Source of the DNA: Gongronella butleri
Taxonomy: Eukaryota; Mucoromycota; Mucoromycetes; Mucorales; Cunninghamellaceae
Length of the DNA: 64,000 bases
Reading direction: 5' to 3'
Assembly (NCBI GenBank): GCA_025201375.1
Contig: JAIWZP010000021.1
Coordinates: 186,001-250,000, forward strand
Shown one piece after another: positions 2,651-44,861 of the stretch. The number at the start of each line of letters is the position of its first letter. Positions within the stretch are counted from its first letter, which is position 1. The translations under genes were made by a program, and so were the position numbers. The notes beneath the pieces are model-generated. The model was not told the origin of the DNA. It saw nothing but the letters and a program-made list of their open reading frames with translations, and searched no databases.

Positions 2651-5600
2651 ATGCCGCCTCCACCGCCTACGCTGGCTCCTGCCGGCGAGTCCACGTCTTC
2701 AAAGAAAATGCGCATGACAATGGCTTGTGTGCGTTGCAGGTAAGAAGTTTCTCACTTTTTTATTTATTTATTTGGAGACCGTCGTCGCAGTAACACTTGA
2801 ACTGACCGTGCGCCTCCTTGCGCCTCCTTGCTTCTCCCTCCCCCCCTCCCTCATTCAGGACAAAGAAAGGTAACAACTCGGTGCTTTGCAGCCACCAATT
2901 CACGAAAAACCTCGCCAAATTTGCTTTTTCTCGATTTATTCGCTTCTTACTCACTCGCCCTCGCCCTTTTTTTTTTTTTCTCTCACGTCTTTGCACTTGA
3001 TAGTCAAGTGCGACTTTGCTCATCCCGCGTGCTCAAGGTGTGCGCAAGCCAAAGGTAAAAAGAGGAGCGATGGGGCAATTCCCCCCTTTTTTTAATGCAT
3101 ATCGACTGACCAGCGCGCCATTGGCTCTTATTTCTTTCTCTTAGCTGACTGCTCTTACGCCGGGTCGTCGACACAGGTGGATCTTTTCAACATTGTCAAG
3201 CTCAATGAGCTTGTTTCGACGCTTCAGAACCGTGTAAAGTCGCTCGAGTCTGATTTGGACGGATTGCAAGCGCGCAGCCCGGATACGATCACGACATACG
3301 AGTCTCCGTGCCCTGTGCAACCGCAGGGCCATTGTGCGCTCTCATTGACCCCACACGGACTGCGGATCGACACGGATATTGTGAATTTGCCGCATCTTTA
3401 CAATATTTTGCTGTCCGGTGTGTCACAATTGGATATCAATGCGAAATCGTCGTCATCCTCGGGCAATGCTGCGCCATCAGGGAGCAGCACATGCGGCAGC
3501 AGCACAGCGAGCAGCACGAGCAGCGTCAGCGACCATCCTTCAACGCCATTGAGCCCACATTGCGATGCTGCGATCCGCATTGCACGCAAGGCGCCCCTCT
3601 GGCGGTCCAATTGGAAGTCTGCGCCCTTGTTCTCGACAGGCGCGCCCACAACACTGCTTCCAAAGGCATTCACGTCGTCGTCGTCGATCCGCCAGCACTA
3701 TATTCTCCGCCCAATCACAACGTCGCCGGCGACGTTGAATCAGATGATCGATATCTACACCGAGTGCTTTTTATGCTTGCCCGACGCCGGCTATGGCGGC
3801 AACGTGCGCGACAGATATCACCGCGGCATCCTACCACCCTTGTTAACCAATGCCATCTTTGCATGGTCCGCACGACATGGCGCCATCCATCATCACCTCT
3901 TTGACGGCCACGATCCAAACATGGTCGGCGAGTATTACTTTTCTGTCGCCAAAAATTTGCTAAAGGATTGTTTCATGATACCGGACATGGACACATTGCA
4001 CGCAATTCTCATTCTTTATCTCTATGTCCTGGGTAAACCTTCTTGGCGAAATGACGATGTGGACGAATCGCAGCAAAAAAAGTCTCAGCAGCAACAGCAA
4101 CAACAACAACAGCAACAGCAGCAGCAGCAGGCCGGCCTCGTCGACTCGGAAGCGTATCTTTTCCTTGGTCTTGCCATTCGGATGTGTTTGGACATGAAAC
4201 ACAAGGAAGAAGAGGTGGTGGACGACCATGCGATGCCAATGCAAGATAATGATGACGGCGAAGATGACGAAAAAACGAGAAAAAGCGTGCGCCAGGAGCG
4301 ATATCGACGATTCTTTTGGGTTCTTTACTTTTTGGAAACCATGTGCGCGTTACAAGCGGAGCGCCCTTTCTCTCTGCCGCCCGACGATCAGATTTCAGTG
4401 CCATACCCGCAGCTGATGGACGGTGTGGAAGTGGGCGAGCAGCAATGGCGCACGGAATTCATGATCAAGCGTATTTGCATCACGCGCATCTATCGGTCCA
4501 TCATCCAACGCACGGCTCAGGACAATTTGCCCGTGGCCGCCATCCAAGACCTTGATCGCCGCCTCCAGACCTGGTATTCACAGCTGCCGCGCTATTTCCA
4601 GTACGAAAAGGGCGATTTGCACCGAGTTGACTGGAAAAGCGTGTCTTTTCGCGAGCAAGCGTGCATTAAGCTCAACCTCGAGTATCATTTTCAGCGCACG
4701 CAATTGTACTCTGTGTTCCTCGATCGCCCAGACGCCAGCGCCAATTCATCGGCAGCAGCAAGCCAACATTTGCGCGTGCCATCCACAGACGCGTCTGCGG
4801 CGGACGATGAAGCGGCGGCGCCTAGCGAGGCGGCGGTGGCCATGGCCATGGAAAGCAAGGCACGCGACATCTGCATCAATTCTGCTACCATGACCGCCGA
4901 GCTGATGCAGTGCTGGAATCAGCTAAAGCAGCCATGGTGCCATTTTTCGCTCGATTCCCTCATGGTCGCCGTCAACATCTTTGAAATGCTGCTAAAGGAT
5001 CAGGTCGACCAGGTCGATCAGGCGCGTCATTGTCTCTCTATCATGCTATCCATCCTGCAATCATCCCCCGTACAAAATCATCGCTATGTCATCCTGCTCA
5101 TGCTGCGAATTCAGCAAGCTCTTCGACCAACACAAGCAACACCACAAAATACCTCGCCTCAAGCCCCTGCATCGTAAGAAAAAAAAAAAAGAAGAAAAAT
5201 GGAAAAAAAGAAAAAGAAAAATCGAGGTACATGTTGTCTGACGTCCCCCCCCTTTTTTTTTTTTGTGTGCGTGCTGCAGGCAATCATCGCAATCTTACCA
5301 ATCGCGGCTCGTTTCGCCTTATGCCCCGTCCATGTCGTTTTCGCCGTCGGTGTCATCGCCCTTGTCGGCGCAATCGCACCCTCAGCAACGGCCACAGCCG
5401 CAATCCGCGTCGCCCACCGCCATGCCTGCGCCACCAATTGCATCTGCATCCGGATCAACGTCGACAGGCTCACCATTGGCGTCCAACGTGATGTCATCGT
5501 CGTCATCATCATCCTCTGCACCTGTGCCCACGCCGTATCCATTGTCTTTTACCGATTTTGCTTCGACAAAGGACCCATACCAGCAGCAACAGCACCAGCA

Positions 5601-8158: not shown

Positions 8159-8315
8159 GTCAGCACGAGCGCGCCCAACCGACACTTTTGCAAAAGGGAG
8201 AAAGACCTAAAATCAAGGCAGCATCTAATCTGGTGTGAACAATCCTATAACAATTTTTTTTTCTCGTCACATTTGATGCCTGCAATTGTCGTCGGTTTTG
8301 TTACAGGGATCTCAA

Positions 8316-8387
8316 CTTTATTGGGTCGCTCTTTCGAAAATTGGGCCACCTCGCCAGAATTTGAGCCAAGCGCTGGAATTTGAGCCA
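8316..8387 (+). repeat. Left subterminal repeat array of the Fanzor element
   Basis: Four units of a motif near GAATTTGAGCCA begin at about 8316, 8336, 8357 and 8376. The last two are exact copies of each other (8357-8368 and 8376-8387); the outer two are diverged. The reverse complement of the motif recurs at 16597-16667 with the same spacing. Confidence 0.65.
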
Positions 8388-8903
8388 CGAGTTGCAGAAA
8401 GCTTGTGATTGGTCGCTTTCGACTCTTTCTTTTCGCTTTGAAGGCCATGATAAAGGGAAAAGAAATAAAAACACGAACTTTTAATTTTTCAATGATAAAT
8501 GTGTACATTTTTTTGTGCAGTGTATCATAGCGTGCTGCCGCAAGCGTTGAAGTGGAAGCGCTGGACAGCTTCTTTCCACCACTGAGACTAAAAAAAACAA
8601 TACGTAGGCAGATCAAAGGACCAAACGTTTTTTCTGTAAAATCCAAAATGCATGAAATTGATGTTATTGTGCATTTTCTCGGATGCTGGATGGCCGATTT
8701 TAACATTTTTATATCAGCGTTGTAGGATCGAGGCAGATGATTTGCGGCGCGAAACGCGTACAAGAAAAAAAACCTGTTTTAAACCAGAGGCAAGAGAAAA
8801 AAAGCAAATTAAAATTGATGTCAATGACAACCCCATAAGACTTTTTAAGGGTTTGCAATGCAATGGGCCATCTGTTTGTTTTAGCCCTCTTTTCTTTTCT
8901 TCA

Positions 8904-9308
8904 ATGGACCAATTACCCCCCCCCCCACTGTCGCCAGAAACGCAGCATCTAACCGTGAATTTGGAATACCTTGGGCGATGCGATGTGGCTGTACAGCGGC
9001 ACACTCTTGTCGGCTATCTTGAGCGATATCCTTTTGATCCCTGTTTATGGGCGATGCGTGCCCGCCTCGAGGAGGAGAACAGCCCTCAAGCAGTGGCAAT
9101 CACCATTGTGAGCCAAGATTTAGAGAATTTGCCTGGAAACCCGTACTTGATGAGAACCTTGGGTGCGTAAGATGACAAAAAAAATAAAGATCTATCTGCT
9201 AAATTTGCCTTTGAATCTGTAGCGCGTCTCCAGCAAGCCAATGAACCCGAGCAACGCCAAGGACAAACAGGTCGAGCACAAGCAGGTCGAGGACGTCGAC
9301 GTCGATGA
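8904..9308 (+). CDS. Small protein of unknown function, 114 aa
   Basis: Two exons, 8904-9162 and 9223-9308, joined in frame (GTGCGT donor, TGTAG acceptor). The protein starts MDQLPPPPLSPE, has a central segment (YLERYPFDPCLWAMRARLEE) that resembles a single half-TPR/HAT helix pair, and ends in an Arg/Gly/Gln-rich basic tail, possibly nucleic-acid binding. An AATAAA lies about 25 bases after the stop. It sits inside the putative Fanzor element and converges on the FEN1-like gene. I recognise no family; the start is the first ATG of an open frame. Confidence 0.5.
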
Positions 9309-9453
9309 AAAAAGGCGCTCAAAATTAATGATTCAATAAAAGTGGGAGCAGAACGACCCAGCGGCGGATCGCGTGCTCGAGGCACTTTTTTTTTATTATT
9401 TGCAACGGTGGGTTTGGTGGATGGACGGCAAAAGGATTGTGTGAAATGTGGGC

Positions 9454-10525
9454 TTAAGCGTCATTGACAGCTTCAGCAATGACGCGGCAATCTCTGCGCA
9501 CACGGTCCTCCCTAAAAATGACGATTAAAGATGTTAACAGTTGCTCTGGGTCTTTTTTTTTTTTCACTCACTTGAACTGGGCCTCGTACATCATGATGTT
9601 CAAGACATTGTCGACGATTGGGGCTCGCCAATGCAAGGAATGGCATAAGATGGGGATTGGTGGAGGCGTATCGATTTGATGGTAGGGTTGCACTTCGTTG
9701 ACCTGTTGTTGTTGTTGTTGTTCCTTAATCATGGCCAATGCACGCGTAGGTCCTAATTCATGGAAACGATGTGAATCCAAGACAGAGCACAAATGCGCTA
9801 GCTATACACCCGCACAAAAAAAATGAGAAAAAAATGAGACGCGTCGCATTTTGACCCATTGAAAGTCTACACAACGCGTACTGTACCTGATGGAATGTAA
9901 TGCCAAGGCCGCTGCATGCGAGTGAAGGATCAATTTCCTGGATGGGCAACCCGCGGGCGGCGGGATCCATCAAATTGCAGAGCAACTTGCCACCAAAACA
10001 CAAAACAGTCAGGTCGTCCACAGCGGCGTCCTGCGTAATGCCCTCGTGGGCGAGGTGCGCGCAAAGGGAGGCAGCGTCGCCGTCAGCACGGATGACAGGC
10101 ATCCCCAATGCTTCCAAGAGCTGCATGGACATTTCCTCGTGTTCGGCCTTCATTGCCGATCGCTGTCGCGCCTTTACAGTTGCACCGGATACATGATGGA
10201 CATCAAAAACAAAGACAGGCCTTATTTTGTGCGTGACAAGACGGATGACAGCCAAGTACAATCCTACAAGATGGCTGAATTGAAGGAAAAGAAAGAAAAT
10301 TAGAGGCCTATTTTCTTTTGCTTGAGCAGATTTGTTTTACGCAATTGGCTGACCACCAGGAGAAGCGAGAGTTGTGCCATTTTGGGTCTTGAATGACCGA
10401 TGGAACGAGGATACGCAGCATGAAGCGTCGATGGCGATGCTGCGAGAGGCTAGGTCACTTAATTTGCAACTTTTGATCGCGTCTTGAGCGTGGTTTGCCA
10501 CCAATAAGTAAATGCTTTGCGACAT
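9454..10525 (-). CDS. FEN1/RAD2-family protein, probably catalytically dead, 286 aa
   Basis: Four exons on the reverse strand (10525-10341, 10274-9887, 9801-9572, 9511-9454) join in frame. The product aligns over its length with flap endonuclease 1: N-terminus with AQDAIKSCKL and IAIDAS, then PVFVFDV, LEALGMPVIRADGDAASLCA, FGGKLLCNL, LPIQEID, LGPTRALAMIKEQ and a C-terminal KEDRVRRDCRVI helix like FEN1 EDRVR. FEN1 cuts 5' flaps using seven or so acidic residues. Here the first two aspartates remain (IDAS, FDV). The EAEA motif reads DAAS, the ATEDMD motif reads AAVDDLT and the GSDY motif reads DSHR, so the metal site is not intact. The segment between the GPxRA helix and the C-terminus is shortened and holds a Gln run. 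The reading frame is nevertheless intact. It lies inside the Fanzor element, so it may be captured cargo or a DNA-structure binding factor. Confidence 0.75.
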
Positions 10526-11689
10526 ATGGGCGACAAGGAGAAAGAGAAAGAAGGGGGAAAAGAGAGTGTAGAAAAAATAGGGACCACCGTAAATGCGGAA
10601 ATTGAAAAGTGAATCCTGCAGCTTGGAACCAGGGCGTCCTTTTTTTTTTTTTTTTTTTTTCTCATGATCACTCGGTTCCCAATTGGGATGTCCAACATCA
10701 GATGTGTTTCTTGCTAGGCTGCCCCCATTTCTGATCATTGCGCCTCTCTTTGACGAATACCACCCTCTCCTTTTAGATGAATAATAAAAAATGTTTGTGT
10801 TTGATTTCAATATGATAAAAATCCCCAGATCATTTGCCGAGGAATATTGAAATTGTCGGTATCTAGCCTTGATCGTCATCTGACTATACTTTGTGGCCAT
10901 TTGGACAAGTTTTTTTGCTAATGCTCTATAGATGATTGGTTTTTAGTGCTCAGATCAAGGTGTGATCGCCAGCCATGTACCCGTGGTCCTGAAATACGTC
11001 GCAAAGTGAAGTGACAAGCCTGAAACTCTGTGTGCAACTCGGATTTCAACTATCACACGTCATAGAGAAGCGCCACGCGCAAATCACAAAAGGAGCCATA
11101 GCGAGCTTCCAACTCAAAATCGAAAAATAAGGTCTCCAGAAATGCGCCAAACTTGCACACAAGATGCATTGCATGGCAAAACCGTGAAAAATGGCAGAAG
11201 CAAGTGAGACACATCTGCCCGTTGACGAGCAACGAGCAATTTTCGTTTAAGCTTTGCACGCAAATTGTGCCGGAGAACGCGCTCAAAGTCCTATTTTGAC
11301 GCGTCCAACAGCGATTAAAGGTCTTTTCAGGCTGCAATTTTTCAACAAACGATTAAAAAACAATAAAAATGCGCCAAACGCGAGTTACTCGGCAGCTATC
11401 TAAATGACAGTCCGTTTATATTGACTCTAGTGTAATAAACAGGAGCAAAATACGGAATGTGCTATGTCACAGAGATTGTTAAACAGAGAGAAACCGCAAT
11501 ATTCATGCATAAATCAATTTTTATGCAAAAGAAAACGAGGAAAGAGCAGAGAAACCAAGCAAACAGGAGACGCAGAAACGGGGGCAACTTAGCAAGAGCC
11601 TTTTGCGGGCATCTGCGATTGCCGCTCTCCCAATTGGGAAAGCGCCCATCAAAAAAAAAAAAAAAGAGGGTGAGGGGAGCAATCGATCA
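10526..11689. other. Non-coding stretch within the element
   Basis: I see no gene here. It contains a long T run (10631-10650), a second copy of dispersed repeat R1 (about 11045-11320), and A/T-rich sequence. An open reverse frame at 10337-10900 is just upstream read-through of FEN1-like exon 1. Confidence 0.5.
11045..11320 (+). repeat. Dispersed repeat family R1, copy 2
   Basis: It matches 726-1020 in the same orientation and 28965-29240 inverted. Shared blocks include CGCGCAAATCA, CTCCAGAAATGCGCCAAACT and the ATCTGCCCGTTG block near 11210. This copy sits inside the Fanzor element, so either the element or the repeat inserted into the other. Confidence 0.6.
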
Positions 11690-12655
11690 ATGTGGAGCGC
11701 GTCCCCCGCTGCGTCGACTTTTTCGAGTTTCTCTGCCCTCCAAGTGACCACACCTCCACGGGACACCAACTCCATGCTGGCCATGGCCGTCCCTTCCAGC
11801 TGCCATTATCTACAGTCATCAAATGGGGAAGAGAATCAGGCTGCTTTCTGGCTTTTTGCCTGATCCGGACATCACCATCGCCAAGATGCTCGGCTTGATG
11901 GCCCTTCATTTCCATCAAATCTTGAAACCGCGTCCCAAGGGAGTCCCGTGCGGTCCTTGGAGTGGAACGAGCATGAGGTGGCCCTTCCGGTTCTTTTCTA
12001 GACTAGTGTCAAAAAGGACCTGGAAATTTTTATGTTTATGCAGCACCCGAGGGAGCGCGTGTTTTTTTTTTTTTTTTTGGATGGAGCACCATCGTCCGCT
12101 GCATCGACTTTTTTTTTTTTGAGATTGGTCTTAGCTTGTGAAGAATGGAAAAAGGACCCTGGAAATTACAAATTTGTTTGTTTATGCAGCAAAGATGGAA
12201 TGACGCGACTTTTTCTTTTTTTTTTTTTCCGGATGGGGCACACCTTGTCCGCTGCGACGACTTTTTCTGCCCGCCGGCTGACCACATCTCCTCAGGCCGC
12301 CGACTCCATGATGTCCATGGCTGTCCTTTCCAGTCTCCATCATCGAGAATCATCAGATGACGATGAGAGTCAGCCTGCTTTGAGGCATTTGTCTGATCCG
12401 GATGTCGCCATCACCAAGCCGCTCAGCCTGATGGCCACTTTTTTCCATCAAATCCTGAAACCGGGCACCAGGGGGATTCCATCCGGTCTTGGCGTGGAAC
12501 CAGCATGAGGAGGCCATCCGGGTCTCAGCTTGTGAAGAGTGAAAAAAGGGACCTTGAAATTTTAAATCTTTGTTTATGTTTATGCAGCACGCGTGGGAGC
12601 GCGTTTTTTTTTTCTTTTGGATGGAGCACCGCGAACTTATAAAAGTGGCGGGGAC
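11690..12655 (+). repeat. Tandemly duplicated segment upstream of the Fanzor gene
   Basis: Two long copies (about 11690-12060 and 12208-12604), one internally deleted copy (about 12062-12207) and a terminal partial copy (12605-12655). Each unit starts near GGATGGAGCACC or GGAGCGCG followed by CGTCGAC and ends with AAAAGGACC..GGAAATT..TTTATGCAG. In the long copies a conserved coding-like stretch exists: forward DPDITIAKMLGLMA against DPDVAITKPLSLMA, both followed by FHQILKP. The frame is broken by stops. The TTTATGCAG end of every unit looks like a 3' splice site. It may be a decayed duplicated exon or repeated promoter/leader sequence. Confidence 0.6.
12638..12645 (+). promoter_or_regulatory. 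TATA box of the Fanzor gene
   Basis: TATAAAAG lies 190 bases before the ATG at 12828, directly downstream of the last partial tandem unit. The intervening leader is very T/C rich and has a possible 5'UTR acceptor (TTTTGACAG, ending 12797). Confidence 0.45.
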
Positions 12656-12827
12656 CTTTTTTTTTTTCTTCTTCTTCTTTGTCTCCCTTTTTTTTTATTT
12701 TCTTTTTTGTCTCCCCTTTTTTTTTTCTGTTTTTTGATTGTCCCCCTCGCTCCCCTTTTTTCTTGTGTTTGCTTCCTTTACCCCGTCCTTTTGACAGCTC
12801 CTGTTGCCCTCAAGGTCAAGTGTCAAT

Positions 12828-15800
12828 ATGGATTTGCCGGGGTCACACTACAAGCACCATTTGATGGTCACGTACAATGTTCTTATTCACATGTCCCCTC
12901 CGACGTTTGCTGCTCACGGCACGATCGAGGCGATTCAAGCGGAGCAGCAGGTGACACGCGAAGAAGCGACGCTTTTGCACTTTCAGGCGATCAAGGAGCG
13001 CAATCGTAAGCACCAGCAAGAGCTCCGACTGCCGATCTCATCCTTTTTTTTTTTTTTCTTTTTCTTTTCTTTTTTTTTTTTTTTCTATTAGGACTAGGAG
13101 GACCACCGTGCAACGCTTGCGGCTCCGTGCTTCATCGAAACCCCAATGACCCGCGGTGCCCCTTCAACCCACAGGCGGTGCAACGTACGACTCGTTCCCC
13201 ACCCCCCATCTCCCTTCCTCCCTTCTTTTTTCCTTTTCCGCTCTCCTTTTGCTGATTCTTTTTTTTTTTTTTTTTTTTTTTTTGCAGAACGTGAGCGTCG
13301 GCAAGGTGACCGGGAGATGCGAGCACTAGCGCGAAATCCGGCAGCCATCCCACGTGCACGCAACATGACGGTCACCATGTACATGCGACGATTCATGCCC
13401 GTCTCCCAATCGTACACGCGCGTGCTGTCATTTTATCGTCTTGTCCGTCCCGAGCTTCGGGAAACGCTCCTAGCGCGCGTCCGTGTCGCGCAGCGTGCCT
13501 TGAGCAACGTGATTCCGCTGTTGCACTATTTTTTGACGGATTTTTTGCTGGTTCATCCGCACCTGGCGACGCGCACCATGTTCACGCAAAACGGAATGTA
13601 CCAGGCGTCCATGATTTTCCGTCAGACAATGCAGCATGGCGGCGCAGCAGGCGAACGGCGACAACTTCTTGGGGACTTGCCTCGGGAACTGGTCAACCAC
13701 TGGGCGACTTTTGCCGAGCAAGCGCATGTGGAGCATGTCGATCCTCTTGTGAATTTGTCGCGGCTGGCGTCTGAAGAATTCAAGAAGCTCGCGCCTGTTT
13801 TTCGTCAACATCTTGCCGACCGCCTCGAAATGCGCATCAAATCGTTTGTGCGCTTCCGCATCCTCACCTCCCAAGACGAGGTAACGTGCAATTTTCCCGG
13901 TCCCCCTTTCTCTGTTCGTGTTTTTCATGTTTTTTTTTCATTTAGGCACCACGAGGCCGTGTGATTGACGCGATCAAGAACTTTGTATGGGACCAATTCA
14001 CGTCTGCTACACCTTTGCTGGTTCGCACGCAGCAGCAGGGCGTCAATGACAATGCCGACAACGACGATGGCGACGATGACGACGTGTTCCCCGCCGAAGA
14101 GGACGACTTTGACTTGAGCGACCTGGACGAGCCAGGATCCGACGACGAGCAAGACCAAGGCCAGCCAATGGGCGCCGGTGGTGGTGGTGGTGGTGGTGGT
14201 GGTGGCCCTTTGCAGCCGGTCACGGTGGCCAATATGCCAGCTGCGATTGTCAATGCCTTGCGCCCGTTGACGTTGTCGATTCTCCAACAAGTCGCCGCTT
14301 GGAAGCCGCAGGCTATGGGTGCCGTGAACATTACATCCTTGCGTCGCTCCCCACATCTCACCGTGCCCGTCCATGTGGCGATTTTGCGCGTCTACGACGA
14401 GTTTCGTGAGGCCCATCCTGAGGGCGAGCATCATATCCCCTCTTACACCTTGTTGCCAATGCCAAGCAATCGCCCACGCTTCCTCACCATTGACTCGGCC
14501 ACTTTCCGCTCGCTCCTTCCCGTCAATGGCTTACCAGATGGTCATCCCGGTCGCGTGGCCGCTCAATCCAACAATGATGTCCCGCCATTCGTCAATCACT
14601 TGCCATTGTTTTGGGCTTGTTTTGATTTCACGGAGCTGGGCATCATGAGGTAAGAGACAAAAAAAAAAAAAAAAAATAAAGGCCATTGAAAAAAAAGGGA
14701 CGCGTCTCAACCCTCTTTTTTTCTTTTTTTTTTTTTCTTTTGATGCAGCCTTGATGAATTGCAAGCTGGTGCTGCGCTGGGTCGATCATTTTCCGGTGTG
14801 ATGAGAACGGATGGCGTTCAAATGCATGTGACGTTCCGGCGCATGAGCGGTCTTGCCAAGCCGCCGGCATTGAAGGACGCTGACATTGCGCACATGGGCT
14901 TGGAAGGCTTCTCGCCCATCGGTGTGGACCCAGGGCGCAAGACGGTGGTGACGGCCGCTTATATACCCGCGGAAGGTGACCCAGGCGCGACGACGACGGA
15001 TCGCGCGGTGCGACGCGTGACATTGAAGGAACACCAAGCCATCGCGAGTGAACAGAACCGACAATTGGCCTTGGAGCGTCGCAAGCAGCAACCCATCCCG
15101 CATCAGACGCCTAGTCAACCTGTTTTGACGATGAAGCAGGTGGAAGACGATGTGCCAATGGCGCGCACTGGCGATGTCGCGACTTTCCGAGCGCATGCAG
15201 CGTACAAATTGCAGCACCATGCTTCCTTTGGAGAATTCTATGGCGAACAAGCCGCCAAGGACCGATTCGCCGCACACCGTGGCAAGCAGCGCGCCGTGGC
15301 CACTGTCGCCAATGTCCTTATGAATGGCAGCTCAAAATACGTCCGACATCAGCGACCCAGGGAAAACAAGTACCGCAATCGCCGACACCGCAAAAGAAAA
15401 AGCCGTCGCCGACGCGCTGGACGTGCGGACGCCGCACGACTACAATTGGCGCAGCTAGAACAGCACCACAACGCCATGCAAGGCGCCCTGGCTGAATTCA
15501 CCCAGCAACAAGAACAAAATCAACAGCAACAGCAGCAACGACGCGCCCTCCTTCCCCCTGAGATTGCCGCCGTCGTCCATCAAGCACAGCAAAACGCCGC
15601 AGCCATCGAAGCAGACGCCCTCGCTCTCGCCATCCAAGCCAATGCCGCCGAACAGACCCGCGCCAATGCCACCATCGAAAATGCCACAGACCCACCAGTG
15701 GTAGCAGAGTAAAAACCACACGCTTGCCAATGCCATCATGGACAATCGCTCATTTTTTTTTTTTTTTTTTAGGCCCATGCGCTTCATGAAGCGGCAGTTC

Positions 15801-16421
15801 AACGGAAGCAACCCCACTGTCCCCGGTGTGCCGCTCATTGGCTTTGGCACGGGTTTGGTTTCAAAAGAACATGTCAAGTTGCGCGGTCTGCCTGTGGGCA
15901 AATCGACCATGGTACTCAAACATCTTGAGGAACGCCAAGCGCGTGGCCTCGTGATGACCATTCGCACCGACGAGTACAAAACATCAAAGGTAGGCACCCA
16001 AGGAGGAGGCAATGGCGAGTGAGAAAAAGGGTCCTCACAATTTCTTTCTTTTTTTTTTTTTTTTCTGTCACAAAAGACCTGCTGCGTGTGCGGCGCCCCC
16101 GCCCGAGAACCGATCCGCTTCAACGACCAAGGCCAGCAATCCTATGCCTTGTACGCCACGCTAGTTTGTGCTCGCTGCCAGCGCTCAGTCGGGCGAGACG
16201 ACGTCGCCGCCGCCAACATGCTATCCATCGTCGTCTCCCGCGCAACCAATGGCACGCGCCCAGCGCCTTTGACACGCCCGGCCGCTGCTGCCCCCACCGC
16301 CATGGCCCAGCCGCCCGCTGCGCCCGCCGTCCATCCGCCAGCCCCACCACCAACCGCCCTACGACGCCCAGCTCCCGCAGAGTGGGACCACCCTCCGCGT
16401 CGCTCGCCCCGCTTACTCTGA
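12828..16421 (+). CDS. Fanzor-type RNA-guided nuclease (eukaryotic TnpB homologue)
   Basis: Seven exons: 12828-13005, 13092-13184, 13288-13880, 13946-14649, 14749-15708, 15773-15989, 16077-16421; every junction keeps frame, giving 1029 residues. Domains in order: an N-terminal zinc knuckle C-x2-C-x4-H-x7-C (C66-C82); a basic helical region; an acidic disordered stretch and a Gly run (about 322-375); RuvC-I with GVDPGRKT (D583); a basic, Gln-rich insert (about 725-840); then TDEYKTSK (E910), a zinc ribbon C917/C920 and C946/C949, and RuvC-III GRDDVAAANML (D956). The order D, E in DEYxTSK, CxxC, CxxC, RD..AA.N is that of Fanzor proteins, which use an omega RNA to cut DNA. The tail is Pro/Ala-rich. 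Longer than most described Fanzors. It is the main gene of the putative element. Subfamily (Fz1 versus Fz2) and activity are not shown by sequence alone. Confidence 0.85.
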
Positions 16422-16680
16422 ACCCGCCACATCCCATCATGTCTTTTTTTTTTGTTTTTTTTTTTTTTTTTTGCCGGCGCCATCGAATGCGCTTAAGAGG
16501 ACGCTCCGGCGCCTCTTTTGAGGAGTTGTACGAAGGTAAGAAAATGAAAAAAAACGAAAAAAAAGAAGAAAAAAAGTGGTTTAGCTCTTCTTTGCTGACT
16601 CAATTTCTTTCTCATTGGCTCAATTTGTTGCTCTTTGGCTCAAATTTTCCCCCTTTGACTCAAAATCTATAATAATACAG
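16422..16680 (+). ncRNA. Candidate omega RNA region at the Fanzor 3' end
   Basis: In OMEGA systems the guide RNA usually overlaps the nuclease 3' end and runs to the element end. This interval fits by position. It contains a 6-bp perfect stem (AAGAGG 16495-16500 with CCTCTT 16512-16517, 11-nt GC-rich loop) in an otherwise T-rich stretch, then the right repeat array. The 16485-16534 piece is also open in frame and followed by GTAAG, so it could instead be an alternative last exon. Positional inference only. Confidence 0.2.
16597..16667 (-). repeat. Right subterminal repeat array of the Fanzor element
   Basis: Four units beginning at 16597, 16616, 16636 and 16656 (TGACTCAATTTC, TGGCTCAATTTG, TGGCTCAAATTT, TGACTCAAAATC). 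They are the reverse complement of the motif in the 8316-8387 array, with the same 19-20 bp period. Confidence 0.65.
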
Positions 16681-16956
16681 TATAGGAATGTTATAGCTTT
16701 TTTCTCTTCCCATTTTTTGATTTTAATGCACGCATCCATCCTAACGCCTTTTTAATCTTTTTCCGTTGCTTTCAATTCTTTCAATTCTACAAGTCAATTA
16801 AAAAAAAAAGAGCGTTTGGGCCCTGAAAAAGCATGTTTTGGCATTAAAATCAGCATTTTTGATGATTTTGCCGTGTGTCTATGATAGTGTACGAGGCGGA
16901 TCAAATGGGTGCGAAATAATAATTTTAATGGTAAAAAAAAAAATAGTACAAAAACT

Positions 16957-19900
16957 CTAGGAAAAGTTGCTAAAGTCCATTTTGAGCTGGATGGTGGGCT
17001 GTTTGTCCTGTTCGCGCTTTTCCTGTGCCAATTGGAGCTGCTGCTGCTGCTGCTGTTGCGCGCGTTGCTGGGACTCGATATTGAAGCGGACACTGGCTTC
17101 CAGATGGCCACGTGTCGCCTGCGGCAGGCGCTGGACGCTTTCGCGGAAGACTTGGGGCATCGACGTTGCAAGCGTCATGATACTAGGCAGCACCATCGTG
17201 TGCAGAGGCGACAGGGGCGTCGCATCGTTGTACGGCGGCTCATCCAACAGTGTCGTCAATGTCGGCAAGATCAGCTCAAGCAATTGAATTTCTAAAATAA
17301 AAAAAGGGGGGTGAGGCGCGTTGTCAATGTGTTTTTTCTCTCTCTCCTTACGCTGTGCATCCGAGTAGTGTGCAGGCATGGCAACGAGGGTGTGTATGTC
17401 GTCGGGCCTTGGATTCGCACTGTCGCGCAGTGCAAGAATGCGTTCCAGCAGCAAGGGCATCACGTTGCGCGAAAATTGGCGCCCGAGTCGCTGGCTCGCG
17501 CCGCTGTTGACGCTCGATGGTGCCATTTCTGCCAAGCTCATCAGTGTGCGCACGCATTGATGCACGACGGCGCGGATCTGTCATGCAAAAAGAGCAGAAA
17601 AAAGGATGAGCGCCATTTTTTTTTCTATTTCTCGATTTTTGCGTTACCTCGTCATTAGACACGTCCAATCCAGCCGCCACGACGTCGAGCAGCAGCTTCA
17701 TGTTGTCGGCATGGCTCATGAAAGCCTGTGGGCACCCTGTGACGATCAGGACCATGGCAAGCAGCCTGTTTTTGGCAAGGTCGACGGCCTCGGGCGTGGA
17801 CAGGTCACTTTTTTCAAAAATAAAAGGTGAGCAATGTCGTTTTATAGCGCTTTTTCAAGGAATGAATGGCTTACGAGAACACATCGGTCGTGAGTTTCCG
17901 CGACACGGTAGCGATGAGCGCGGCAAGCGCCTTGATTTGGCTGCGCAGCAGTGGTTCCTCAAAGTTGTGCAGCATTGTCTTGAAGCACACGAGGATTGTC
18001 GGTGCGAGCGATCGGTACGACGCGTCACCCATGAGCAAATCTGCGTAAAACAATAAAACATGGTCAAAATACGCGTCTTGGGGACGTTTTGCCTCCTCGC
18101 GCTCTTGGCTCAATTTTTGGCCCGCTCCTTTGTGCTCATTGCTTACCAAAGTAGATGTGCAGGCACACGGCTAGCAAATCGACCTTGAATTTGGGCGGTG
18201 TCAGTCTTGTCAATTGCGCAAGCGCCTCGAGGCTTTGTTGGAGCAGCGATTGGATGTGTTTTTTGTTCTTTTCTTTGCCTACCATCAGAAAAAAAAAGAG
18301 AATGAGAAGTTTGCTCAACGTGAAGCGTCGCATTGTGTCATTTCTTACGTGGCAGGACGGATTTGCTGCCGAGGCTGGGCACGTATTGCAAAAAGACGGC
18401 AACAAGCAGCCGCAGAATATAGTACAGCTTGGAAGTGGAGGGGAACACGTCGGATGCCAAATCCTGATCGACGGAGACGAGGTCGCTGCGTCCAAAAAAA
18501 AAAAAAGGGGGAGGTGGAATCAGAGATAGGTTCGTCCTTTTTTTTTTTTTTTTTTGTATCATACTTTGATTGATCCGAGGGGTCCAGGTCGTCGTTGACG
18601 ATTTCTGCACCATAATTTGTCATGAGCTGCTGGAGAAGGGTGACGATGATGCGTTTGACCTGGTGTCCCTCTGTTTGGATGAGTCTGTCGAGGACGTTGA
18701 CGAGTTCGAGAAAGATGCCCTTGTCAAGGAATTGGTCGCCGGTGAGCGATGGTTGGACAAACGTTTTCAGGGCGGACAGGCAGATGAGCATGACGGCGGA
18801 CGCGTCAGCGCGGCCACTGGCACCCGCGACACGCGACAAACTCTCCATGCACAGGCCAAACAAGATGGAAAACAGGCCGTGCGGCGCGTCTGTTTGCTGT
18901 TCCTTGGCCAGTGCGTCCAGCATCGATGGCGACTGCTGCTCAATCAGCGACGCGACGGCCTCCATGATTTTGAGCCATGACCGGCGGTAGTACTAGCATA
19001 AAAAAGGTGTGTGAGATCATCAAAACCATCCACCAAAAATGGTCCAAATCGCATGATCGACGCGTCAATCCCATTTCTTTTTACCGGCAGCACGACTTCC
19101 TTTGTGGCGACAGAGTACATGGCGTCAATGCCCGAGGTTTGAGACGCGTGGACACCCTCGGCACCACTTGACAGCGCAATAATGTCGGATTCCAGGCGAA
19201 TGCGCGCGTAATCCTTGAGCGACCGCAGCCAAAGCGGGCTCAGAATGGCCAAATTGCTAAATAGCAAAGAAAAATAAGCGACCCACTCCATTCTTTTTCG
19301 TGTTTTTTTTTCTTAGTTCCGCCCCCCTTTTTTTTTTTGTAAAACGATGAATAAACTTACGGCTTGAGGATCTGGCGGATATAGTCCTGGCGCTGGCTTG
19401 CGACCTGAAGCTCTGCCCATGCATTCAGGACGGAGAGCTTGACCATGACGGAGGCATGTGGGCTAAGATCCTTGACCTCGCCGACGCCTGAGAGCTTGGA
19501 TTCGTCTTTGCAGCGGTCGAGGGCGGACGTGAGCAGCTTGAGCACACGGCTGAGCTGGTACAGGTCCTTGACAATGCCACTGCCCACGTAAATCGCGCAA
19601 ACACGCACGGCCGCAGCGACAATTTCCGACGAAGAATCGGCGCCAAAGGCAGGCGTCAGTGCCGCGCCAATCTGGGCTGCATATTGCTCGAGCAGCAGCA
19701 TGTCCTCCATGTCTGCGTCCTCGGTGGCCGCGAATTTCTACATCATCAAAAGAAAGCGTGTTAAATTTTCCTCTTTTTCCCTCGTTTTCATTCTCTCTCT
19801 CTCTCTCTCTCTCTTGGTGTATACCTCGATGATCATTTTCAAGAGTCCGATGCCTGCGAGACGCAATTCGTTGACCTGTGCGGTGGCGGCGGTAAAGGAA

Positions 19901-22900
19901 AGGCGGATGAGGTCGGGCAAGCGGAAAACAAGGTAGTCGCCAAGGCCAGCCTGTTGTCTGCGCTTGCGTGCAAGGATGAGATCAAAATGGGCGGGCTCGC
20001 CGTGCAGAGCGATCCATTCAATAGTCTTTTGGAGGCATTGCAGTGCGAACAATTGGGTGCGCCAGCGCGGCGGCAAGTCTAAACGCACGCGATTGGCCAC
20101 CATGCCGGACGCGTCGGCAACAGACGTGGGCAGGTCCATCATGGTATCGTCATCGTCGTCGTCATCGTCGTTTGCCGCGTCAAAATCGTCGAAATCGTTG
20201 TCTCCGACACTGCTGCGCGTCAATCCTGCGCCATCGTCTTTTGTTCCAGCCGATTCCGAGGCATTGGCGGCCATTGACGCGTCGACGCCTGCAGGCTTGG
20301 CTGTGGGCTGCTGTGTCAAGATGCGCTTGGCAATGCTGACCCACACAGAAGGTTCTTGGACGCAAGTTTCCTTGAGCCATGTCTTGATGACGTTTTTCAC
20401 ATCGTACAAACGTGGATCGGTGTCGAGCATGGTGAACAGATCGCTGTCGATGCCCTGCTGGACCATTTTGAAGATCATGGACGGATCGCGCTGAACAAGT
20501 TGATACAAGCAGGTAATGGCGGCTTTTTTGAGTGGCAAATGGACGCTTGTGAGCTGACGTTGTAAATACGGGACCAAATCTCGGACATCGACGTTTTGAG
20601 GGGCAAACATGAGAAAATGTTGCAAGCATCGGATGGCTTGCACATTGACGCGATTGTCGGGCTCGAGCTTAAGTTCTTCGACCATGGTCAGACACAATTC
20701 GCGGATTTTCGACGATGCTTGCAATTCCGGGCCGAGCGTGCCGATCAATTCGTAGATGATGCGTCCAAAGCACATGTACGCGTTGGCGGAGCCCGTCATG
20801 CCGGCATTGGACACAGCCACGGACCCTGCGCCGGGTTCATGGCTCTCGCACAGGTACAATTTGGCGACCATGGATAAAGTGCTATTGACGTAGCCGGAAA
20901 ACAGCAACCCGGCGGCGCGGATGGTCATGGCCAGCGCCTCGAGAGCCCACACGTGGACCACGGGATGCGGATCGCTGCTGAGCGACAATAAAATGCCCAC
21001 GAGCGTCTTGAGATGCGATGCAGCCGCCATGCCGCCCACATGACTATAAATGTAGCCAATGGTCAGTGCGGCGCCGGCACGCACATCAGGGTCACGATTG
21101 GAAACGACCAGATCCACGAGTTGTTGCATTTGCGCGGCGACAAATTGGCCACCGAGCATGGCGGTCAAGCGTCCGAGAGTTTCGCTGGCGGCATTGCGCA
21201 GATACGGATCTGGATGGCTGACGGCCTCCATCAGAATATCCTGGACAAGCGCGACGGCGCGTGTTTCCGCGTGCAATCGCAACGCGCCGGATCGAAACGC
21301 GTTTAAAAGCGCGACAACCACATTGACAAGCAACGCCGCGCGTTTTGGCGAGTTTTTCTCGGCGCGACAATCCTTTAACATCTTTGCCATGTGGTCAAAG
21401 GCGGCCTCTTGGACGGGTGGCGGCTGGTGCGGGAACAATGTCGTGAAAAGATCGAGTGCGGCATCTACATAGCCTGAGGACGGCGCAACAGGCTCTGGCT
21501 GCTTCAAATACCGCGTCTTGTCAAACGTGGAAAAGAGGAGCAAGGGGTCCAAATGCACCGAACCGAGAATGGGCCGTTCCAGCAACGCCTCAATGGGCTC
21601 GAAATGATCCTTTGCCTGCCATGGGTGCCCGTCGTCGTCATCATCGTCGTTCAATGCCGATCCAGATGTCGTCGCTGGATTCGCGTGGCCAGTCCCCGCG
21701 CCATTGGCCGCGCCGGCACCACCTGCAAACGACGCTTGTGTAAATTGAGTGCCATTTGTTTGCGAAACGTTGTTTTGGCTGGCAAATGGCGGCGCATCGA
21801 CGTGGTAGCCTTGCAATTTGCTGGTGACGCCATGGCCGTGGCCATCCGTGGCGGTCCACAGCGACACGAATTGGCCCGGGACCGTGGCCGTGATTTGCAC
21901 ATGGGCGCCGGACGATGGCGTGAGTTTGTCGGGCTCGGTAAAGACGGTGAGTGCCTGGCGCAACAGACTGGTGAGCGATGCTTCGTGCGTAGACAGCAAT
22001 GGGCGCAGCACTACAAAGCATTGACACAATCGCTTGCGCAGCATGTAATATTGATCGGTGAGCTTGGCGGCATAGGGCACGCATGGCGATTGCGTGGCTG
22101 GGCTGAAATTGGTGGGCGCGGTTGCCAAAAAGGCGACGGTATTGTTTAACAGAGCGGCAATGCGCTTGGCAATGTCCAAGGTGACGAGCGAGTGGCTATT
22201 GTGGGCGAGGAAGCTATAAATGGCATTGATGGCGCATGCACGCGTGTGGAACAAAAACGACCACTCTGTCTCGGCCTTTATGCTGTTTGCCTCCTTGCCC
22301 GTGGGTTTTGGTAGTGTCGATTTCCAAAAGAGAAGCAATTGAGGTAAATGCAGCTTGACAAGATTCGGTCCAAGAGCCATGAGGCCGCCCACCAGGATCC
22401 ATGCGATTTGCAATTGCAATGCCACGACCATGGGCTGCTGTTGTTGTTGCTGTTGCTCTTTTTTGTCCGTCTGCAGCAATTGTTGCTGCGATTGCTTCAG
22501 CAGGTGGCTGGCCAGCGACATGGCACGTGCACTCAATTCAAACGATGTATAAATGGGTCGCGAAGGGAACACGCTCATGATTGCCGCCGACGCGTACGCA
22601 TACGCGAGCGTGCGACGGAAGAGCGACACCGATGCCGACGGGTTGCTGAGGCTGCCCAGGTCCTTTTCAAGTGCATTGAGCGCGCGAGGCAACAAATACG
22701 GCAAATTGGAAGGCACCGCCGAGCAAAGACATCGAATCGCCCACACGGCTGCCATCTGCACAGAGAAACTCGGATGTGTCAGCAACACAAACAATGGATC
22801 AATCAAGGTCGCCTAAAAAACATTTGGGAAAAAAATGAGCAAAATGCGAAAAAAAGGAAAAAAAAAAAAAAGAGTGGTTGTACCTGAACAGACACGGCTG

Positions 22901-40044: not shown

Positions 40045-43000
40045 AAAAAAAAAAAAGTGTGCGACGTTTGGCAAAAATAGAATTCATGCAAGATGGCCAA
40101 GATGGGACCCAAAAAGATGACGACCATGATGGAAAAAAAAAAAAATAGACCATCGCGTGGCTGTTTTGGGTGGTAGAGGGGGCTCATTTTATTCATTTAT
40201 TTTTGATATATCCAGGGCGACTTGCTTGCGACGCTTCAATTGGGTGCTTTGCACACGCAGGCGCCGCATGAGGATGTTGAGCAAGCACTCGAATGGTTTG
40301 ACAGGGCCGGTGTGCTAATCGATGGCGGCCATTACGAAGAAGAAGCGTCCAGCAAAGTGGCCATGTACCATTATTTGCTTGGTCGTGAATACTGGTTGCT
40401 TTTTGGGCGTCAGGCGTTTGATTCGTCGGTTCGATGGACCACGGAAGGCAAGCGGCGTCGGCACCACCATCAATTGGCGGTGGATCATTTTACAAAGGCT
40501 TCTGCGCGTGGATATGCGCCTGCGCAGCGTGCATTGGGCCATCTTTGCTACATTGACGCGCATCCGGACGCGCAGGTACGCGCGCAGCAGCAGAAAAAGG
40601 CGCATCGGTTGTTTTTGGCAGCGGCCGCACAAGGCGATGTGTCATCGATGGGGTTTTTGGGCGAGCAATACCAGCATGGGCACGGGACGGCGCAAAACAC
40701 AGAATTGGCGATCCACTATTACCAGCAGGCGACGCAGGGAGGGTCAGCTGTCGCGCAGCTGTCGCTTGGGACGCTGTTTCATGAACAAGGCTTGTACGAC
40801 CACGCATTACCGCACTTTTTGGCGCTTGCCACGCGGCCGCCTGCAGCGTCCAAGCAAGATGTGCTCGAACAGGACATTTTCAACATCACGTGCCACGCCA
40901 AATTCATGGTCGCCTCGTATCGGCAGGTGGGCCATGCGTGCACGGCCGATCCATGCGCTGCCTTTGACGCCATGCGCCAATTGGCCGACAATGACCACTA
41001 TGCGCCCGCATACCTGCCCGTCGCGCTCGCCTACCAACGCGGTATCGTTGCGCCAAACGTGTCAAAAGCGTCCAATGCATCAAATGCACTAAAAGCATCA
41101 AAAGCATCAATGTTGTCACATTCACCCCCATTGTCCAATTCGTCCCAGTCATCCAATTCATCCAAATCGTCGCTCATTGGCCCCGCAACGCCATCGCCAT
41201 CACCGCCACCCGCCGATGCGGTGATGGTGCTCGAAGCGAATTTGCCATTGGCATTTTCTTATTTTGAAAAGGCGGCGACACTGGACGATAGCTTGGATGC
41301 ACAATTGGCACTTGCGTCCATGTGCGCGAATGGGTACGATTTCCGTGCATTGGATGGCTCTGTGCAGCGCAAGGGCAAGGATCGCACACGCGCGTTCCAT
41401 TGGTATTCATTGGCGGCCGAGCGGCACCAGCACCCCGAAGCCCAGTATTGCCTGGGCATTTATTATGCCAAGGGTCTTGCACCGCTGACCGACAAGGACT
41501 TGGATGCCGCCATGCAACTGTACGACGCGTCAGCACGCCAAGATTACGCGCTCGCCATGGTCCAGCTCGCGCCCTTGTTGATTGCACAAAACCGCGTCGA
41601 TGACGCGCGCCAATGGCTGCAGCGCGCCGTCGACAAGCAATTGCCATCGGCATATCGCGAACTTGCTCTTTTGTACGAGCGCTATTATACGAGCGACCCA
41701 GAAAGCCACGAAAAGGGCTGGCATTTGCTCACACGCGCCATTGAACTCAATGATGCCCAGGCCTGGTGCGTGCGCTCTCGCTACTATGAGCATGGCTGGC
41801 ACGTTCCCCAGGACACCGAAAAGGCATTGACCTGTCTCACAAATGCACTGGAAAAAAAGTATTTAAAGTAAGTTTCTCGCGGAAAATGACGAAAAAATGT
41901 GGAGGAAAAAAAACACGACTGAAAAAAAAAAGAATGACGCGATTGGAAAAAAAAAAAAAGATGGAAAAATGCGTCAACAGTAATATTTTTGCTCATTTTT
42001 TGCTCGATTTTTTTATAATATGGTAGGGCGGCGCTGCTGATTGGCGAATTCCAGGAACGGCACGGCGGGCGCGAGCATGCGCTCGAGACGTACAATGCAT
42101 TGATCAAGCGGCACCCGCTTCGGTCGCAGATTGGCTGGTACGCACGGCTAAACAAGAGCCGATTGCTCGTGCACGCCATGGCCGCCGGGCCGGAACACAC
42201 GCCATCTGCGAATGATAGCCTCGATCAGGTGTTCCGATGGCTACAAGACATGGCTGACCAGCAGCTCGGCAAGGACGCCATTGAACCGCTCTATTTGCTT
42301 GGTAAAACAAGAAAAAAAAGTCGAAATCCATGTTGTTTCTTAATTCGTCTTCCCCTTCCCCCCCCCTTTCCCCCCCTTCTTTAGGTGTCTGCTACGAATT
42401 TGGCATTGGGACGGACGGCAGTCTGGGTCGTGCCAAGGTGGCGTATGAGGAGGCATGCAAGTTGAACGTGCCGGACGTGTCATGGCCCCAGCAGAGTGCG
42501 CGGCTGCGCCTTGCGATCCTGTGCGCCAACCAGGACCAGCCGCGCGAGGCATTGGCCCATATCAGGTGCATGGAGCCGCATCTGCAGCGCATGAATCACC
42601 AATCGCCCGAAACACGGCTGCAAGCGCGCCTTGCGCGTTATTATCTCGGTAAAAAGAAGATCCTCCTAATTTTTTTTTCTCCTTGATTTGGTTCGAAAAC
42701 CTGTTTTCTTTTTGCCGCCGACCCGTTTTGCCTCCCCATCCCCTAACCCTATTTTCTTCTTTTTCTTTTTTAAAGGATATTTCCTCCTTTACGGCGAAAA
42801 GGACGAAACAGACATCGATGGCGGACTCCAATGGCTGCAAGAAGCGGCAGATCAGGGCGAGGGCAAGGCGTGGTACGCGCTCGGTGAATGGGCGCAGCAA
42901 CATGACGCTCCTGACGAGGCGAAAGCGCGGTTTGAAAAAGGCGTGTCGATGGGGCATGCCGGATGTATGCGCGAATTGGCGATGGTGCTGCAACAAGAAC

Positions 43001-44861
43001 ACGCCGGCGACGTGCAATGGGACGGCATGGACGCGTTTGAGCTTTTGAAACGTGCACACAAGCTTGGCGATGTGGAAGCGGCGGTGAAATTGGGCATTGC
43101 CATGCAACACGGACTCGGCACGGCCACGGACGTGCGCGGCGGCGATGTGATGATGGCGCTTGGTCTGCTCCGCGGCGCTGCACAACAGGGCCACAAGATG
43201 GCGGCCATGTACACGGCGCTGGCATTCCAAGAGCTTGGACAGCAGAATTTGGCCGTCGAATGGTTCCAAATCCACCCGGACCATCTGATCAGTCGCGTGT
43301 GGCTCGCGTACTATCGACTAAAGGGCCTTGGCGGCGTTCAGCCCGATGCACGCGCCGCATTTGCAGAACTTTTGGCCATTGTCGACGCGAATGCTTCAAA
43401 TACGTCCGCCACATTGACCAAAGCGGACGATGAGACGCTCAGCTTGGCTCTGTTAATGGTTGGGCGATGCTACGAGGACGGCGATGGCACCACTGCCGAT
43501 GCAGCGCGAGCCATGGTTTATTACGCACGCGCGCAGCAACGAACCCAAGATGTCGAGGCCACGTTCCGTCTGGGCAAGCTACTGTTCAATCAAGGCGGCG
43601 ACGCGGGTCAATTGCGCGCATTCGAGTGCTTTGATGCGGCAGCGTCAAAGGGCCATTTGGAGGCGAAATACATGGTTGGTGTTTACCACGCACGAGGACT
43701 TGGTGGTGTGCGTCGCGACAAGCAGACGGCCATCATCCATCTCCGGCGCACAGTGCAAGCGGGCCACACACGCGCGCATCTAGATTTGGGCCACGTGCTA
43801 TGGGCGGCAAGGCAATGGGACGACGCCTTGAGCCATTTCAACAAAGCCGCCGATTTGCACATTCCCGAGGCCGCGTTCCATTTGGGTCATTTGTATCACA
43901 CAGGCAAAAAGCTACGCAATGGCACGCGCATTGTCCCACAGGATCACAACCGAGCCTTTGCCTACTTTCAAAAGGCCGCCGACCATGGTCACGCCCACGC
44001 CGCTCTCATGCTCGGCTCCTATTACCAGGAGGGCTACGACGCCGCTTTCCATCCCGTCAATCTTGACAAGGCCGCCTATTACTACCAATTGGCCCTCAAA
44101 ACATTCGAATCGCCCGATTCTGGCGAAAACATCGATGACGCCACGCGCCACGCCATTGCCATGTTGCAGCTCGCCAATGCCAAGCTATCACACGCGCTCG
44201 CCGAGCAAGCGACCGATCCATTGGACGCGAATCAACACCATCAACGCGCCTTTGACGCGTTCCTCAGCCTAAGTCCTCTGTTCCGCACCAATTCATCCGC
44301 TGTATCCTCCAACGACGACCTCGACGACCTTGAAGAAACCCAGGATGACAACGAAAATGACAATGACGACGACGACATGCCGTGGTACGACGCCCAATTG
44401 ATGGTTGGCTTTTACTATTTGCACGGCTGGGGTCCCATTGAGAAGAATGAACATGCCGCCATGCGTGCCATTCGCGATGCGGCGCGCCATGGCCATGCCG
44501 ACGCCATGGTCGCCCTCGCAAAGTGCTATGAAGAGGGCCTTGCCGTGCAAAAAGACCAATTGGCCGCCTACGACCATTGGCTTGCTGCCGCCAACCTCGG
44601 TGCCGTCGATGCCATGACCCGTGTAAGCGATTACCTGCGCCACGGCACCGCAGGCCAATACGACATGGACACGGCCGATCTCTGGGACGCAAAGGCATCT
44701 TATCATCGTAAGGATCACATCAAAAAAAAAAAAAAAAAGAAAAGAGAAATTTCATGGCCATTGACACCTTTTTTTATTATTGACTAGGCGAGCGCACATT
44801 TGACGACGCATCGAGCATCTACACGACCACCTCCACTTCATCCACGTCCTCCAGCATCTAA
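38789..44861 (+). CDS. Large Sel1-repeat (TPR-like) protein, about 1765 aa
   Basis: Six exons: 38789-39889, 40216-41867, 42027-42301, 42385-42648, 42776-44707, 44788-44861; phases agree. After a Ser-rich, disordered N-terminal ~170 residues the protein is a long array of Sel1-type helical repeats, for example LGEQYQHGHGTAQNTELAIH, CLGIYYAKGLAPLTDKDLD, LGIAMQHGLGTATDV, VGRCYEDGDGTTADAARAM, VGFYYLHGWGPIEKNEHAAM and LAKCYEEGLAVQKDQLAAY. These solenoids act as scaffolds; fungal members include chitin synthase regulators and ERAD partners, but I cannot assign this one. The start MGAQQSQ fits the N-myristoylation pattern (Gly2, Ser6), suggesting membrane attachment. A Ser/Asn-rich loop interrupts the array near 41060-41200. 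The last exon adds a short Thr/Ser tail. Confidence 0.85.

Follow-up and report, generated by a model that had tools for sequence, protein, structure and literature searches.

The Fanzor nuclease of Parasitella, a genus placed in the Mucorales, has had its structure solved. Fanzor guide RNAs arise at the right end of their element and extend into the flanking DNA (PMC10432273), and that of PpFz1 is 75 nucleotides (nt) long (PMC11423790). The family is recognised by a published fingerprint, namely a DPG motif with an alternative Glu, a C4 ribbon and an RD motif (PMC10711439, PMC3627910). In systems of this obligate mobile element-guided activity (OMEGA) type, one stretch of DNA must serve both transposase recognition and as the RNA scaffold beside the guide. 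Introns are linked to mobile elements in bacterial IStrons, in which TnpB-family elements are joined to self-splicing introns (PMC4227781), and in introners, some of which are DNA transposons that have terminal inverted repeats (TIRs) and bring a 3' splice site with them (PMC9860276). Here we describe a Fanzor gene (12828..16421, + strand) in a 64,000-nt stretch of the genome of Gongronella butleri (Mucorales, Cunninghamellaceae, according to the taxonomy record), hereafter the window. The gene lies inside a composite transposon, at about 8300-16682, which also carries a FEN1-like protein and a small reading frame, orfX. An initial annotation had valued the gene as a Fanzor in a fungus; since Fanzor1 families were already listed in 2013 for the Mucorales genera Mucor, Rhizopus and Phycomyces (PMC3627910), its presence alone is not new. 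The gene is known in kind, and the unexpected part is the 3' end downstream of its stop codon: the end of the element resembles a splice site, and therefore the guide RNA may be stitched together by splicing.

Downstream of the stop codon, a candidate omega-RNA scaffold exon (16473..16535, + strand), consisting of two hairpins and a tail terminating in TACGAAG, abuts a strong 5' splice site at 16536. From here a putative intron of 145 nt in the 3' untranslated region (3'UTR; GTAAGAAA...ACAG; 16536..16680, + strand), with a strong donor and a weak acceptor, runs to an AG at 16679-16680. This AG falls within the right end of the element (16596..16682), where four TGRCTCAA repeats at 20-nt spacing terminate in ACAG|TA. 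The flank directly outside the element (16683..16697, + strand) is presumed, from OMEGA anatomy, to encode the guide. The score was derived from 12 coding donors, which themselves range from 5.4 to 10.9; the window donor reached 12.8 and ranked in the top 0.03% of 3289 GT sites. The window copy thus has the strong GTAAG donor expected of a terminal spliceosomal intron.

These features suggest a model whereby the Fanzor pre-mRNA reads through the end of the element into flanking DNA. The spliceosome would then excise the right-end repeats and thereby link the scaffold of two hairpins, about 63 nt long, to the bases that begin the flank; trimming would leave an omega-RNA of about 78 nt (63 plus about 15) with the flank as guide, near the length given for PpFz1. 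The nuclease would cut matching unoccupied sites, and repair would restore or spread the element; a possible role of the FEN1-like protein in this repair, and the weakest step of the model, is binding to flaps or junctions. Taking both halves jointly, that the gene product is an RNA-guided DNA nuclease of Fanzor1 type, encoded together with a FEN1-like protein and orfX on a transposon with TIRs, and that splicing of a terminal intron joins scaffold to flanking-DNA guide, we are on balance inclined to accept this model.

The arrangement recurs among related copies. A genome search with the window protein returned at least 61 exon-level matches, the window's own exons counted, and in window-type copies the stop codon is followed by a structured stretch terminating in TACRAWG|GTAAG. 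A 15-base donor pattern had 11 matches (reversed control, 4): nine Fanzor loci, one right end of the kind that we call a ghost (C34:1061070), and an unrelated-looking locus, C23:126094, where we interpret the 15-mer as the ordinary donor of an unrelated gene. No Fanzor gene was found in the surrounding stretch examined at the ghosts C18, C78, C15 and C16:608529. Among the 11 window-type Fanzor loci whose 3' end could be read, 10 have the donor (the nine of the pattern plus C12) and C26 lacks it, and the ghost ends C18, C78 and C16:608529 carry GTAAG behind quite different scaffolds. A pattern for the right end itself matched 18 times at 16 distinct places, with none in the reversed control; as a DNA query, the 80-base right end found three places only. 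Donor counts omit five of the 16 (C35, C38, C54:219212, C69 and C56), which look like other elements or have no donor. GTAAG lay 60-190 nt upstream in 11 of 12 right ends tested. Its probability under shuffling was 0.03-0.11, with one representative for each of six scaffold types; since the types are related, the product of the six values is not a probability. Donors of the scaffold types other than the window's scored 3.1-10.0. At the acceptor side, 8 of 11 scored window-lineage right ends have a CTNAH whose A is 18-19 nt away from the AG, and at C23 most right-end repeats are lost with ACAG kept.

A second, divergent Fanzor lineage gave the clearest acceptors. The genome search identified ten such loci, matching the C-terminal part only at 27-33% identity, and all six that were translated keep the ribbon and RD motifs of Fanzors. 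Each of the ten sister loci has a donor in or near the 3'UTR (GTAAG in eight, GTAAA in two). We scored acceptors for a CTNAY located 15-40 nt upstream, a pyrimidine content of 65% or more and an AG with no intervening AG; branch point, pyrimidine tract and AG were all present at 10/10 sister right ends. In three groups, covering eight of the ten loci, the divergence of related copies placed the element boundary 0-5 nt beyond the AG (C55/C39:270060 from an alignment; C71/C1:141878/C75 and C16/C24:89085/C100 by eye). As background, 58 of 127,600 window positions have the same acceptor features, 11 of them together with a GTAAG donor, real introns counted. As a design, splicing is thus well supported for the sister lineage; extending it to the window copy is an extrapolation, because window-lineage acceptors are poor when scored in the same way. 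The broader proposition is that in this fungus the spliceosome may assemble Fanzor guide RNAs and remove the transposase-binding end, by a design common to two divergent lineages. Each element would supply only a scaffold exon and, at its edge, a 3' splice site, and any landing-site DNA would become guide by splicing. This proposition is to us very nearly an even call.

Folding separates the two sides of the donor. In most copies the segment 5' of the donor folds as two hairpins plus a single-stranded tail, with z values from -0.45 (window) to -3.46 across 11 scaffold segments; the 70 nt 5' of the donor had negative z in 15 of 17 loci, and the z of the putative introns scattered about 0. These values bear on antagonistic splicing of an IStron-like kind, in which the intron would hold or interrupt guide-RNA information and splicing would tune the amount of guide. 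The pairing of TnpB-family elements with group I introns in IStrons (PMC4227781) is a precedent, a GGGGAGCATAG stretch is common to some sister introns (by eye), and some of these introns fold better than shuffles (C16, z -2.0; C100, z -1.2). However, mean intron z is near 0 with the upstream exons negative, and the donor sits in the element's own 3'UTR, so that an element within a host mRNA could not be spliced out whole. We regard this alternative as unlikely. As in IStrons, an OMEGA-type element here has an end that doubles as a putative intron boundary, but with spliceosomal signals where IStrons have a ribozyme, and the putative intron is the last 66-182 nt, not the whole element. Within 16300-16900 no Rfam family, group I intron included, reached its gathering score. 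A CCUUU-AAAGGU pairing across the donor, proposed by RNAalifold for the window group, was not kept since other groups do not share it, and the AG-free stretch, long but T-rich, was not used as evidence.

Several observations weigh against the model. In the window, the tract preceding the terminal AG is 56% pyrimidine, below the 65% threshold, and has CTCAA with its A 19 nt upstream and no CTNAY branch. The threshold is reached by one of the 11 scored window-lineage right ends (C23), the others having 52-59%; these 11 comprise eight Fanzor loci and three ghosts, with C1, C29 and the C34:1061070 ghost left out. C1 has lost the terminal AG. Right ends without a donor occur at C24:117284, which has an internal deletion, at the ghost C15:4351, which reads GGAAG at the donor position, and at C56:42166, and at the ghosts C18, C78 and C16:608529 the donor scores 3.1-3.3, whereas the weakest coding donor scores 5.4. 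The folding z of the window scaffold is the weakest of its set, at -0.45, and covariation in the window group (RNAalifold) is slight, with both-sided changes in 2 of 15 pairs. The copies are related, so the chance figures are not independent, and two of the ten sister ends (C39:336403 and C15:527838) were located by the motif itself, which is circular. On the protein side, the window protein hit no Fanzor structure when PDB was searched by sequence, and the structure prediction that the initial annotation had proposed as a check was unusable when run by AlphaFold on P0001, the 752-residue NCBI protein of the C45 copy (three sequences; predicted local distance difference test score, pLDDT, 37.7).

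Precedent points in the same direction. In ascovirus (insect-virus) Fanzor1, the TIR and target-site duplication (TSD) form part of the reRNA scaffold (PMC10711439), and the Gongronella omega-RNA might likewise be contiguous, running through scaffold, right-end repeats and guide, with the splice-like signals either incidental or bound by the nuclease. ACAG is also simply the end of the repeat, and GGUAAG could be a protein-binding motif, its extra G being kept in five of six scaffold types. Such a reading has to contend with the branch, pyrimidine tract and AG at sister-lineage ends, with the unstructured stretch adjoining the guide, and with C23 and a ghost, where repeats are lost but the AG is kept; we consider it improbable. 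The strong window donor and weak window-lineage acceptor would also fit U1 telescripting, in which recruitment of the U1 small nuclear ribonucleoprotein by the donor suppresses polyadenylation at the AT-rich right end and lets transcription continue into the flank, with splicing unneeded. This leaves the canonical acceptors of the sister lineage unexplained, and the chance that it is correct seems to us very small.

If the splicing model is correct, excision of the terminal repeats would represent a distinct, eukaryote-specific solution to the double use of the element end, compared with the folding of repeats into the RNA by ascovirus Fanzor1. It would link the spliceosome with an RNA-guided nuclease and would change how guide RNAs are searched for, as a contiguous reading beyond the stop codon would predict the wrong RNA. 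Some introners resemble this element in being TIR transposons with a 3' splice site of their own (PMC9860276); introners differ in creating introns in host genes, whereas the partner donor here is part of the 3'UTR of the element itself. Among the papers listed by the literature searches, none described a spliced Fanzor guide RNA, judged from titles and abstract openings, which is not proof of absence. The text of three Fanzor papers did not contain 'intron', and 'splic' occurred only in a reference title and in a remark on cyclophilin.

The gene itself has seven exons (12828-13005, 13092-13184, 13288-13880, 13946-14649, 14749-15708, 15773-15989 and 16077-16421, all + strand) separated by six GT-AG introns. 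As the initial annotation had proposed, these join in frame, giving 1029 residues and one stop, at the end, and the junctions of introns 3-6 are those of P0001. The motifs also lie where they had been placed. RuvC-I (GVDPGRKT at 581, D583) and a basic, Gln-rich insert are encoded by exon 5 (14749..15708); DEYKTSK at 909, with the alternative Glu E910, the CxxC pairs at 917/920 and 946/949, and GRDDVAAANML at 954, with the RuvC-III Asp D956, are encoded by exons 6-7 (15773..16421 with their intron), as judged from the gene model and Pfam. The claimed extra N-terminal zinc knuckle is present as CNAC at 66 and was found again in the C45, C23 and C54 copies, and the insert, likewise predicted, forms one long helix in the poor AlphaFold model of P0001 (pLDDT 37.7). 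While this reading of the gene held, the annotation had overlooked the transposon, the two further genes within it, and the way in which its right end and the 3'UTR are laid out like splice sites.

Membership of the Fanzor family, also claimed there, is supported by the published fingerprint and by the multi-copy transposon setting. The DPG of RuvC-I (PMC10711439) is present in GVDPGRKT; six residues separate E910 from C917, placing the alternative Glu six residues before the zinc ribbon; [TS][TS]-x-x-C4 followed within 5-50 residues by RD appears as T913 S914, C917/920/946/949 and R955 D956; and the gene sits, as expected of a Fanzor, in a transposable element. The D-x(125-275)-[TS][TS] spacing is 329 residues in the window protein because of the insert, which is roughly 120 residues long; the range is that seen in the 2013 set (PMC3627910) and stands outside the 2023 fingerprint (PMC10711439). 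In the suggested profile search, Pfam PF07282, the TNB domain, barely exceeded its cut-off (26.6 versus 26.3 bits; E 6.9e-6); the NCBIfam TnpB model matched weakly (E 0.0029), far under its cut-off. A Fanzor family profile searched against PDB matched TnpB-like proteins and relatives only (best L79, E 0.0011). As regards Fanzor2, which is associated with IS607-type elements, no resolvase was present among the window proteins scanned, which represent part of the frames. With the Fanzor1 proteins SpuFz1 and PpFz1 the window copy shares the DPG and alternative Glu, C4 ribbon, RD motif, carriage by a transposon, an RNA-like segment 3' of the stop and occurrence in Mucorales. In contrast to Fanzor1, the protein is 1029 residues long (Spu-1 protein, 633) and has the N-terminal zinc knuckle, putative splice sites frame the right end, and FEN1-like and TPR-like partners are present; the RuvC insert of PpFz1 is described as a small domain (PMC11423790), unlike the long basic Gln-rich insert here. 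The window Fanzor is predicted to cleave DNA under RNA guidance.

The window gene is apparently intact, open throughout and with its catalytic residues present. The window and C45 are similar at 12757-16368 (68%) and, upstream, at 8922-10547 (71%). Over 1000 codons, the ratio of nonsynonymous to synonymous substitution (dN/dS) between the two is about 0.18, at a dS of 1.43 that is near saturation; by region it is 0.10 for residues 1-95, which include the knuckle, and 0.38 for the insert. Related copies have decayed, C45 by a frameshift in exon 3 and C1 by an Asn in place of the RuvC-I Asp, which might suggest that the window copy is itself a decaying relic whose gene model is open by accident. 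Set against this are 1029 codons open across six introns, the retained catalytic residues and the dN/dS of 0.18, and a relic seems to us most improbable. The C26 copy has an altered RuvC-III motif. In a subgroup comprising C25:450689, C34:425157 and C29:35129 the second CxxC pair is apparently down to one Cys, and one of these copies has GIDGGRRT in place of DPG. Scanned viral contigs contained no relatives.

The left end of the transposon (8300..8390, first base uncertain) has inverted TTGRGCCA motifs near 8343, 8361 and 8380 and resembles the left ends of C23 and C24; in C45, the left end repeats the right end in inverted orientation. C45 and C1 match each other in two blocks, one of 3765 aligned bases at 92% identity and one of 2831 at 89%. 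TAACAGG on both sides of C23 is a possible TSD; at the window copy no clear TSD was seen. In the sister lineage, the two ends of the C55/C39 element resemble each other over a short stretch (CACTTCAAAAAA/CACTGCAAAAAA, by eye), which recalls the ends of CACTA-type elements. Five sister right ends (C16:476803, C24:89085, C55:13357, C71:95120 and C75:47355) seem, by eye, to lie roughly 100-200 bases 5' of a frame that starts with ATG and runs in the same direction, as if in host 5' regions.

Of the two other genes, the FEN1/XPG-like one (9454..10525, - strand) has several exons, with approximate inner limits, and matches Pfam XPG_N (4.8e-11) and XPG_I (1.9e-5) and FEN1 in PDB (E 1.6e-26). It gave nine genome matches at six places, namely the window, C45, C1 and C23 elements plus C47 and C33, and its dN/dS against C45 is 0.13 in the main exon, which is constrained, and 0.32 in the first. 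The protein resembles FEN1 over nearly its full length but, unlike the FEN1/XPG nucleases, reads A, T and H in the alignment at three metal-ligand positions, which we take to be E160, D181 and D233. As these acids are replaced, the protein has probably lost its catalytic activity or has it in changed form. The XPG gene raised the idea of an Academ-type transposon; the literature gave nothing useful, and a search for Fanzor together with XPG had no match. The second gene, orfX (8904..9170, + strand), encodes an 88-residue TPR-like protein, and all five of its genome matches (window, C45, C1, C23 and C54) have a Fanzor gene no more than about 11 kb away. Pfam TPR_14 is matched by its C54 and C23 relatives (2.3e-5, over the cut-off, and 8.6e-5, slightly under, respectively); the window orfX itself had no significant Pfam TPR match. 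Orientation relative to Fanzor varies, the FEN1-like gene in C23 and orfX in C54 being reversed with respect to the window. A relative of orfX, P0004, 93% identical, is encoded on a 2340-base ENA contig; a second orfX exon was dropped, the reading frame and P0004 both stopping at LGA.

Imperfect direct repeats occupy 11323-12521 of the window, 5' of the Fanzor gene, and similar repeats lie 5' of the C34:512046 copy. The C45/C1 element includes a retroelement RNase H-like frame (C45:33581-34087, by eye) to the left of orfX. A small element starting TACTGGATTTGTCC is found at two right ends and within a third (C12:10263, C16:608555 and C29:36300-37530). Finally, the window has probable host genes for a Fungal_trans factor (3096-5174), a HEAT-repeat Laa1/HEATR5-like protein (19738-22812) and a Sel1-repeat protein (42670-44787).

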